Source: a virus
Direction: 5' to 3' (one strand)
Length of the DNA stretch: 20,195 bases
Virus record (IMG/VR): IMGVR_UViG_3300026304_000011
Location: 1 to 20,195 of that record
Positions 17,788 through 20,195 of the stretch are shown here, piece after piece. Position numbers and translations under genes: made by a program. The number at the start of each line of letters is the position of its first letter. The first letter of the stretch is position 1. Under the pieces are notes generated by a model. It was not told the origin of the DNA and ran no database searches. It saw only the letters and a program-made list of their open reading frames with translations.

Positions 17788-18021
17788 TCAGCCCCGGGCC
17801 AGCCAGTCGAACACCACGGCCGTAACCCCGGTCACGATCCACCCCGCGTACCGGCTGAAGCCGAACGCCCCGTAGTCCACAGCGGTGAACGCCGCCACGG
17901 TCACGCAATGCTCGCGGGCAAACGGCAATGCCTTCGCGGCCACGCGACGGATCCCCGGGGCCGCCTCAACCAGGGCGCCGATCAGTGACCGGTGACGGCC
18001 ATGCGGGATAGCGGCAACCAC
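17788..18021 (-). CDS. small one-helix membrane protein upstream of portal (77 aa)
   Basis: The product has a basic N-terminal half (HGRHRSLIGALVEAAPGIRR) and one or two hydrophobic segments: CVTVAAFTAVDYGAFGF (about 39-55) and WIVTGVTAVVFDWLA (about 61-75). Small membrane proteins at this place occur in other actinophages, and their job is unknown. The frame is open to a TTG at 18066, but that codon abuts a stable hairpin and lacks a usable ribosome site. GTG at 18021 has AGGAAG six bases upstream, so I prefer it. It is the first gene of the leftward structural operon, and its stop is two bases from the portal start. Confidence 0.6.
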   Translation of the reverse strand: MVAAIPHGRHRSLIGALVEAAPGIRRVAAKALPFAREHCVTVAAFTAVDYGAFGFSRYAGWIVTGVTAVVFDWLARG

Positions 18022-18148
18022 GAGGCGCTTCCTGTCCGGGGACAGCCCCGCGCCCGCACGCGACAAGCCCCAAGCCAGGCGTGCGGGCTTGGGGCCTCTA
18101 CACCCGGCATGCTAGCAGCCAAAACGTGACAGGCGTTAGCTTTGGCGT
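18022..18148. promoter_or_regulatory. divergent intergenic region between structural operon and terminase genes
   Basis: These 127 bases separate the leftward late operon from the rightward terminase genes, so promoters for both should lie here. On the + strand a TANNNT box (TAGCTT, 18137-18142) stands six bases before the GTG of the small terminase gene, the arrangement of actinobacterial leaderless transcripts. On the - strand TAGCAT (18115-18110) is a possible -10 element. No clear -35 element is seen for either, so the promoters are tentative. Confidence 0.35.
18067..18095. terminator. perfect 10-bp hairpin in the leader of the structural operon
   Basis: GCCCCAAGCC (18067-18076) and GGCTTGGGGC (18086-18095) pair perfectly around a nine-base loop. 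It looks like an actinobacterial terminator without a T-run, but it lies between divergent genes, upstream of the first gene of the - strand operon. An attenuator or an RNA-stabilising leader is therefore as likely as a terminator for outside transcription. Confidence 0.5.
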
Positions 18149-18451
18149 GTGACAACCGCAAACCTGCGCGACGCGGACACGCTGCTGCAATCCGCGGTCG
18201 CCGGCACCATCACCGCGCTCGACCTCACCGAAAAGGACCGCGGCGCCGTCCGCCTCGCCTGCGAATACGCGCGGATCATAGACCTCGCCTGCGACAACCC
18301 GGAGATCCTCAACAAGCTCGGGCCCAAGCTCCTCGCCTGCCTCGAATCACTCGGCGCCACCCCGGCCGCGCGGGCGCGGATAAAGGCGGTGAAGCCGCCG
18401 GATGCCAAACCGAACCAGCTCGCCAGGCTCCGGGCAGCGCGCCAGCCCTAA
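18149..18451 (+). CDS. putative terminase small subunit (100 aa)
   Basis: The product is helical and charged (MTTANLRDADTLLQSAVAGT, LTEKDRGAVRLACEYARIID, NPEILNKLGPKLLACLESL, a basic ARARIKAVKPP and ARLRAARQ tail). Its gene overlaps the large terminase by 50 bases. Small-subunit-like proteins of this size and make-up precede the large terminase in many actinophages and would recognise the packaging site, but I see no clear helix-turn-helix, so the call rests on context. The GTG at 18149 is the only possible start in its region: a stop codon lies four codons upstream, and no Shine-Dalgarno sequence is visible. A TAGCTT box six bases before suggests leaderless translation. Glu codons are mostly GAA, as in the large subunit. 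Confidence 0.65.
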   Translation: MTTANLRDADTLLQSAVAGTITALDLTEKDRGAVRLACEYARIIDLACDNPEILNKLGPKLLACLESLGATPAARARIKAVKPPDAKPNQLARLRAARQP

Positions 18452-19910
18452 ACACGGCCGCACCCAGCCCCGCCTCTGGACGCCGCCGCTACGCACCCTG
18501 AACCGCAAAACCACCCGCGGCTACGAAATCATCGACTTCGCCGACATGATCGGCGAACCGCTCCTGCCCTGGCAGAAATGGGCCGTCATCCACGCGTTCG
18601 AACGGAAGCGCGATGGCTCCTACCGGTTCCGCACCGTCCTCATCCTCGTCGCCCGGCAGAACGGCAAAAGCCAGCTCAAGCGCATCGTCTCACTCTGGCG
18701 CATGTACCAGGACGGCGCCAGGCGCATCCTCGGCGTAGCCCAGGACGTCGCCCTCGCCCGCGACCAGTGGAACATGTGCCAGGAAACCATCCACGACTGC
18801 CCCGACCTCGAAGAAGAATGGGGCCGCGTCCGCAACGTCAACGGCGATGAATACTTCATCGCCAGCGGCTGCCGCTACGCCATCAAAGCCGCCAACCGGC
18901 GCGCCGGACGCGGCGGCAGCAACGACGAAGTCAACATCGACGAACTCCGCGAGCAAACCGACTGGCGGGCCTGGGCCGCCGTCTCCAAAACCACCATGGC
19001 CCGCGGCAACGGCCAGGTGTGGGGAATGTCGAACGCCGGCGACGACGAATCCGTCGTCCTCAACCAGCTCCGAGACGCCGCCCTCGCCAGGCACGACGAC
19101 TCCCTCTGCATCCTCGAATGGTCCGCCGAAGACGGCTGCGAACTCGACGACCAGCGAGCCTGGGCCCAGGCCAACCCCGGCCTCGGCTACATCATCAGCG
19201 AATCCGCCATCCGCTCCGCACTCACCGACCCCCCCGAAATCTTCCGCACCGAAGTTCTGTGCCAGCGGGTCGCCCACCTGGACTCGGCGATCGACGCCGC
19301 CGCGTGGAAAGACTGCGCCGACCCCGGCGCCACCATGGACGGCCTCCGCGACCGCACCGCCGCCTGCTTCGACGTCGCCGAAGACGGCCAGCACGCCACC
19401 CTAGCCGTCGCCGCCCGCCTCTCGACCGGCCAGATCCGCACCGAAATCGCCGGGGCCTGGGACAGCACGGCTCAGGCCCGCGACGAACTGCCCCTCCTCC
19501 TCGCCCGCATCAAACCCCGCGCCTTCGCCTGGTACCCCGCCGGGCCCGCCGCCGCCCTCGAACCAGCACTAGCCGCCCTTGCCGCAAAATACGCGCCCCG
19601 CACCGTCAAGCCCCGCACCGGCGAACCCCCGCCATGGCTCCCCGCCAACGGCCAGATCACCGGCCTCAAAGTCGCCGAAGCCTGCCTAGGGCTCGCCGAC
19701 CTCACCCGCGGCCGCCAGATCCTCCACCCCGCCGACCCCCTCCTCGACGCCCACGTGGCCGGCGCCACCAAACAACCCGCCGGCGACGGCTGGCGATTCA
19801 CCCGCCGCCACCAAGGCCACGCCGACGCCGCCTACGCAGCAGCTGGCGCCACCCAAGTCGCGCTCACCATCCCCGAACCGCGACGCGCCCGCATCCGCAT
19901 CATCAGCTAG
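18402..19910 (+). CDS. terminase large subunit
   Basis: This is the ATPase-nuclease that packages DNA. The 502-residue protein has the entry motif LLPWQKWAVIHAFER (54-68), Walker A VARQNGKSQ (83-91), Walker B VNIDELRE (177-184, with D180/E181), motif III GMSNAG (208-213), and a C-terminal RNase H-like nuclease with likely metal ligands D324 (ACFDVAED), D449 (LLDAHV) and D475 (GHADAAY). Length and order match the Terminase_1 family of actinophages. The ATG at 18402 lies inside the small subunit gene. No other usual start occurs before the conserved part. Almost all Glu codons are GAA and Arg is mostly CGC, unlike the - strand genes. It points away from the portal operon, which is unusual. Confidence 0.93.
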   Translation: MPNRTSSPGSGQRASPKHGRTQPRLWTPPLRTLNRKTTRGYEIIDFADMIGEPLLPWQKWAVIHAFERKRDGSYRFRTVLILVARQNGKSQLKRIVSLWRMYQDGARRILGVAQDVALARDQWNMCQETIHDCPDLEEEWGRVRNVNGDEYFIASGCRYAIKAANRRAGRGGSNDEVNIDELREQTDWRAWAAVSKTTMARGNGQVWGMSNAGDDESVVLNQLRDAALARHDDSLCILEWSAEDGCELDDQRAWAQANPGLGYIISESAIRSALTDPPEIFRTEVLCQRVAHLDSAIDAAAWKDCADPGATMDGLRDRTAACFDVAEDGQHATLAVAARLSTGQIRTEIAGAWDSTAQARDELPLLLARIKPRAFAWYPAGPAAALEPALAALAAKYAPRTVKPRTGEPPPWLPANGQITGLKVAEACLGLADLTRGRQILHPADPLLDAHVAGATKQPAGDGWRFTRRHQGHADAAYAAAGATQVALTIPEPRRARIRIIS

Positions 19911-19946
19911 CCGCCCGCCACATATGTCACGCACAGTCACCGCGTT

Positions 19947-19962
19947 TCGAACGCCCGTTCGA
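19947..19962. promoter_or_regulatory. LexA/SOS box 1
   Basis: TCGAACGCCCGTTCGA is a perfect inverted repeat (TCGAACG, two-base centre, CGTTCGA). It fits the actinobacterial SOS box TCGAAC-N4-GTTCGA at every fixed position. It lies 37 bases after the terminase stop, directly ahead of a TAATCT -10-like element, where bound repressor would block transcription to the right. Confidence 0.7.
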
Positions 19963-20007
19963 CCGCTAATCTGGGCCCCGAAATTTTGAATGGCAACTTA
20001 TGTGAGG

Positions 20008-20023
20008 TCGAACGCCCGTTCGA
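20008..20023. promoter_or_regulatory. LexA/SOS box 2
   Basis: The same 16 bases as box 1, TCGAACGCCCGTTCGA, occur again 61 bp downstream (centre to centre). The four variable central bases are identical too. Flanking bases differ, so this is not a simple duplication of a longer segment. Confidence 0.7.
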
Positions 20024-20094
20024 ACCGCCGCGCGGCTCGGCGGCGGCCGGGGAGGGGGAACCAGGCCTACTCTGAGCGAGAGTGACGAGTCTTG

Positions 20095-20195
20095 ATGGAC
20101 TTCGACCGTCTGTTCGAATTTCTGCGCGAGTGTTCGAATTTCTGGATGGTCGTTCGATTTTTTCTGTCCCACTGTGAGTGTGGATGTCCGATTTG
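20095..20195 (+). CDS. possible start of a gene cut by the right edge
   Basis: An ATG at 20095 (preceded by TTG at 20092) opens a frame reading MDFDRLFEFLRECSNFW that stays open for 33 codons to the window end. No good ribosome binding site is seen and the repeats run through it, so it may be chance. If real, it would be the gene under the SOS-like boxes. Confidence 0.2.
   Translation, partial: MDFDRLFEFLRECSNFWMVVRFFLSHCECGCPI
20102..20117. promoter_or_regulatory. degenerate LexA-type box 3
   Basis: TCGACCGTCTGTTCGA differs from TCGAAC-N4-GTTCGA at one fixed base (A to C in the left arm). It overlaps the first copy of the 20-bp repeat. Weaker binding would be expected, and it might be fortuitous. 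Confidence 0.4.
20111..20166 (+). repeat. three GTTCGA direct repeats at 20-bp spacing
   Basis: TGTTCGAATTTCTG occurs exactly at 20111-20124 and 20131-20144. A third, looser copy (CGTTCGATTTTTTCTG) is at 20151-20166. The 20-bp period is close to two helical turns and is not a multiple of three, so it is kept at DNA level rather than as a protein repeat. It looks like a row of operator half-sites or iterons. Confidence 0.6.

Follow-up and report, generated by a model that had tools for sequence, protein, structure and literature searches.

SOS-type boxes at the cohesive-end site of actinobacterial phages: a candidate site for host LexA

What purpose could two perfect copies of a bacterial SOS box serve directly behind the terminase genes of a virus? 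The window, meaning the whole stretch of DNA analysed here, is an entire virus record of 20,195 bp, with tail, capsid, protease and portal genes on its minus strand and the small and large terminase genes on its plus strand (Table 1). A scan of the window finds TCGAACGCCCGTTCGA twice, 61 bp apart, each copy agreeing with TCGAAC-N4-GTTCGA at 12 of 12 specified bases, as the initial annotation had stated. The fit to the actinobacterial LexA consensus also extends to the centre, GCCC in both copies, which provides the purine at position 7 and the pyrimidine at position 10; the LexA boxes of Mycobacterium tuberculosis and Streptomyces have the same 12 specified bases, the same palindrome and the same R-N-N-Y centre. 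A prophage search of genome contigs for the host found no relative of the window phage. Beyond the pair described initially, the window holds a third box and further half-sites. Base composition predicts about 0.0006 perfect boxes in the window; when three mismatches are allowed the window contains 16 matches against 10.6 expected, which is not unusual, so that significance is confined to the perfect sites, for which a chance origin is unlikely.

Table 1. Features of the terminase and cos region, in window coordinates
Feature	Position	Strand	Basis or remark
Small terminase	18149..18451	+	Pfam Terminase_6, E 5e-12
Large terminase (TerL)	18402..19910	+	phrog_9, E 5e-68; reads toward cos, against portal, protease and capsid
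Degenerate copy of window-family palindrome GTCACGCNGCGTGAC	19926..19940	none	From sequence; palindrome enriched at cos in relatives
SOS-type box 1, TCGAACGCCCGTTCGA	19947..19962	none	12/12
SOS-type box 2, TCGAACGCCCGTTCGA	20008..20023	none	12/12; ends 41 bp ahead of predicted cos cut
G-run GGGGAGGGGGA of cos core	20049..20059	+	Kept in window-family relatives
Predicted cos cut near 20064/20065, CTCTG next	20060..20074	+	Homologous contig ends of five relatives
TGGACTT, right edge of cos core	20096..20102	+	Conserved
SOS-type box 3, TCGACCGTCTGTTCGA	20102..20117	none	11/12; beyond predicted cut
Further GTTCGA half-sites	20132..20157	none	GTTCGAATTTCTG, found in relative L312 too

The surroundings of the boxes point to the site at which the phage DNA is cut. 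Relatives retrieved by their terminase share a common core 3' of TerL, consisting of the G-run, CTCTG and TGGACTT, and the contigs of five of them (L283, L285, L288, L292 and L304) end at a homologous point, 14–16 nt past the start of the G-run. This is as expected for a virion end, and by homology the equivalent point in the window would lie near 20064. The neighbouring genes are a terminase and an HNH endonuclease: TerL lies to the left, and ten relatives have the HNH gene, on the minus strand, as their first clear gene on the right-hand side. It is well supported that both perfect boxes of the window sit within the non-coding cos (cohesive-end) region after TerL. An Rfam search matched no RNA element, and Rona, Maja and Jojo24, the nearest isolates by terminase DNA among those checked, have no box at their ends. 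The packaging module of the window (17791–19910) and its relatives is inverted, the terminase genes running opposite to portal and capsid and toward cos, with the HNH gene converging on cos from the opposite direction. Inspection of the sequence by eye suggests an intein-like insertion (CLDIATPVLTARGTLSIGEL...) after TerL residue 282 in L028 and L030, and a truncated match points to the same in L325 and L326.

The box is found at cos in other phages as well. The exact 16-mer lies 49–51 bp from the right end of Yoshi, Demsculpinboyz, Soul22, Jabbawokkie, Avani and a 56,275-bp IMG record, and 48 bp from the right end of IMG isolate 2700988889; in three mycobacteriophages, Yoshi, Avani and Soul22, the distance between box and virion end is 50 bp. 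Four Gordonia phages of the Nyceirae group (Nyceirae, Ewald, Phishy and Meyran) carry a perfect box 64 bp from the virion end, and the Ewald record states joined cohesive ends. Many IMG/VR loci follow the order HNH stop, box, G-run, cos, small terminase gene (TerS); the arrangement of genes around the box varies by lineage, and the box stays with cos whatever the order. Nearly every record searched has one perfect box per genome, at cos, in a count where L103 carries two and L100 was left out of the cos check, and about a dozen IMG contigs have the 16-mer in another conserved context, away from cos. Among the boxes linked to cos, the perfect ones listed share the R-N-N-Y centre. An integrase gene is present in most box carriers (L061 has none, and L082 has one only below the cut-off; compared with the phage collection, L082 gave no near match, just an HNH-level match and a 41-bp end match). 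Across unrelated actinobacterial phage lineages the box is a marker of cos, about 40–65 bp from the cut, and this placement is well supported.

In Nyceirae (L338; KX557282.1, 1339–3010) TerL is annotated as separate ATPase and nuclease genes, and the annotated HNH frame runs across the genome ends. Four IMG isolate records of 64–68 kb (L035, L057, L062 and L116) pack two or three perfect boxes into about 45 bp, a cluster that looks like an ordinary SOS-regulated region, and in L063 (3880–4053) and at the start of L106 TCGAACGGGTGTTCGA-type boxes are clustered within about 150 bp and followed by a G-run.

Among loci fetched by their terminase alone, the box not being considered, there are 16 matches of at least 11/12 in 59.5 kb of cos region, where 0.35 would be expected, versus 4 in 681 kb elsewhere. 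The resulting enrichment at cos is 46-fold, with a p value that is overstated by the interrelatedness of the loci. None of six control palindromes was found at cos in the terminase-fetched loci, and a query combining box and G-run gave 35 matches in IMG/VR versus 7 for its control.

The boxes occupy a slot next to the G-run, about 40–65 bp from the cut and often matched by another site across the cut; in many temperate actinobacteriophages this slot holds SOS-type boxes, in their relatives other palindromes. The motif TTGTACCAA occurs in 29 copies in cos regions and nowhere else in the loci, and is restricted to cos in six whole records too. On the TerL tree of the A1 family, at least three switches between motif classes are seen. 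As the slot is polymorphic and many relatives have no box, the box is not essential for packaging. Repeats of TTGTACCAA lie on both sides of cos, upstream of TerL, in L147, L149, L150, L164, L165, L167, L174, L183 and L185, and just 3' of TerL in L281 (= L008) two TTATCCACA (DnaA-type) boxes flank a GTCACGC palindrome beside the cos G-run. Sites for other host regulators were considered at cos, but two loci with DnaA-type boxes and a single DasR-like site are too few to support a claim.

Judged from the sequence of the sites, host LexA is the most likely binder of the cos-linked boxes and probably does bind them. The consensus measured for LexA of S. venezuelae is tCGAAC-N4-GNNCGa (PMC9380542), and LexA of M. 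tuberculosis binds such boxes at about 1–4 nM (PMC8607333). An alternative reader would be a phage-encoded packaging or cos-binding protein that recognizes LexA-like palindromes, with a specificity that differs between phages while the slot remains the same. Such a protein would suit sites that are tied to cos and lie on both sides of the cut, as well as the other motifs of the slot, TTGTACCAA, GTCACGCNGCGTGAC and GATGGTGACCATC, which are likewise cos-specific; as TTGTACCAA-type motifs have no known host binder, slot readers encoded by phages could exist. However, the box is decoupled by computation from terminase sequence. Ramsey, whose packaging proteins are near-identical to those of Yoshi (TerS 85%, TerL 80% and HNH 79% identity), has no box (best match 7/12), whereas lineages with little or no terminase similarity have the box in common, and the repeated switching of motif class on the A1 tree also argues against a phage-encoded reader. 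The terminase itself is an unlikely reader. In the A1 family (for example L130, L134 and L185) a conserved T-tract starts +21 to +22 from the cut, as placed by similarity to the Yoshi end, and in HK97 the small terminase occupies +15 to +29 relative to its own cut; the T-tract fits the HK97 site, so the small-terminase site is explained without the slot. Recognition by terminase or HNH protein as the sole explanation is weakened both by this separate HK97-like site and by the comparison of Yoshi with Ramsey, and we regard a phage-encoded reader in general as rather unlikely.

A different function was proposed in the initial annotation, which, besides the LexA-consensus fit that stands, took the boxes as evidence for a LexA-repressed gene reading rightward out of the window. 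More broadly, the boxes could be ordinary LexA operators of a phage promoter, serving either such a gene or, elsewhere, a late-operon promoter at cos. In favour of this, the sites are perfect LexA matches; where the order is HNH-cos-TerS, a pair of boxes brackets the DNA ahead of TerS, and the downstream member of the pair overlaps the start of TerS in some phages of the A1 family. Against this, the genes flanking cos in the window family converge on it: the first gene to the right, which the annotation had proposed to identify and which was sought in relatives, is in all ten the HNH gene, aimed back at cos on the minus strand and convergent with TerL, leaving no rightward gene there to control. 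Judged from these right-hand neighbours of the relatives, the boxes do not stand at the promoter of a downstream gene. The TAATCT hexamer offered as a core promoter is present at 19967–19972, but a search of 17900–20195 found no two hexamers paired as in a promoter, and no box lies in the divergent region ahead of the terminase genes, where a promoter would be placed. In the Nyceirae group the HNH reading frame runs across the ends and contains the box. A rightward LexA-controlled gene is accordingly rejected for the window family, and the operator explanation as a whole appears improbable. A role as immunity operators is weakened because perfect boxes and TTGTACCAA are confined to cos, one-mismatch boxes away from cos being few. 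Chance or a passive repeat is most improbable, for although GC-rich phage DNA often contains TTCGAA-type sequence and the three-mismatch count of the window is near expectation, neither accounts for the near-zero expectation for perfect boxes, the enrichment at cos in loci picked without regard to the box or the similar spacing from box to cut in several lineages.

We therefore prefer to think of the boxes as part of cos, where host LexA would bind a swappable flanking slot and make access SOS-dependent, an explanation that, taken whole, we put at about even chances. In an undamaged cell host LexA would sit on both flanks of cos; the SOS response would cleave LexA, which would leave these flanks, and SOS would in this way govern whether cos can be reached or whether transcription can cross it. 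That LexA gates cos in this manner is a tentative suggestion. It is possible, though doubtful, that in lysogens LexA acts as a removable lock on the cos of the prophage, blocking terminase or transcription until the SOS signal responsible for phage induction releases LexA as well. The integrase encoded by most box carriers counts in favour of LexA acting at cos; the optional nature of the slot and its frequent occupation by other motifs count against this, leaving room for a reader of phage origin.

Known systems provide precedents for parts of this model. Packaging at the lambda cos (cosQ, cosN and cosB) requires host IHF, and in the Bacillus phage GIL01 the repressor is host LexA. The likeness to lambda is a host DNA-binding protein at cos, with the role of LexA here a proposed one; the difference is that IHF promotes packaging and stays in place under SOS, whereas LexA is removed by SOS and the box is optional. 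HK97, with its small terminase and the HNH protein gp74, resembles the phages described here in having HNH beside cos and in the position of the small-terminase site, where the T-tract lies, but the slot, about 50 bp ahead of the cut, is outside the HK97 small-terminase footprint. GIL01 is also a temperate phage with SOS boxes for host LexA; there LexA acts at the lysogenic promoter P1, not at cos. Known actinobacterial LexA boxes have been described as operators of cellular or prophage genes, whereas those described here adjoin the packaging site.

Among the open-access papers searched, none was found that connects LexA boxes with cos; the well-supported placement of LexA-type boxes at cos is thus unreported there. 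The model is testable in culturable phages of M. smegmatis, with Yoshi and Avani carrying the box and Ramsey providing near-identical packaging proteins without it. If LexA does bind at cos, the DNA-damage response would reach the packaging site directly and not just the phage repressor, and LexA would be one more host factor in the biology of actinobacterial cos sites.
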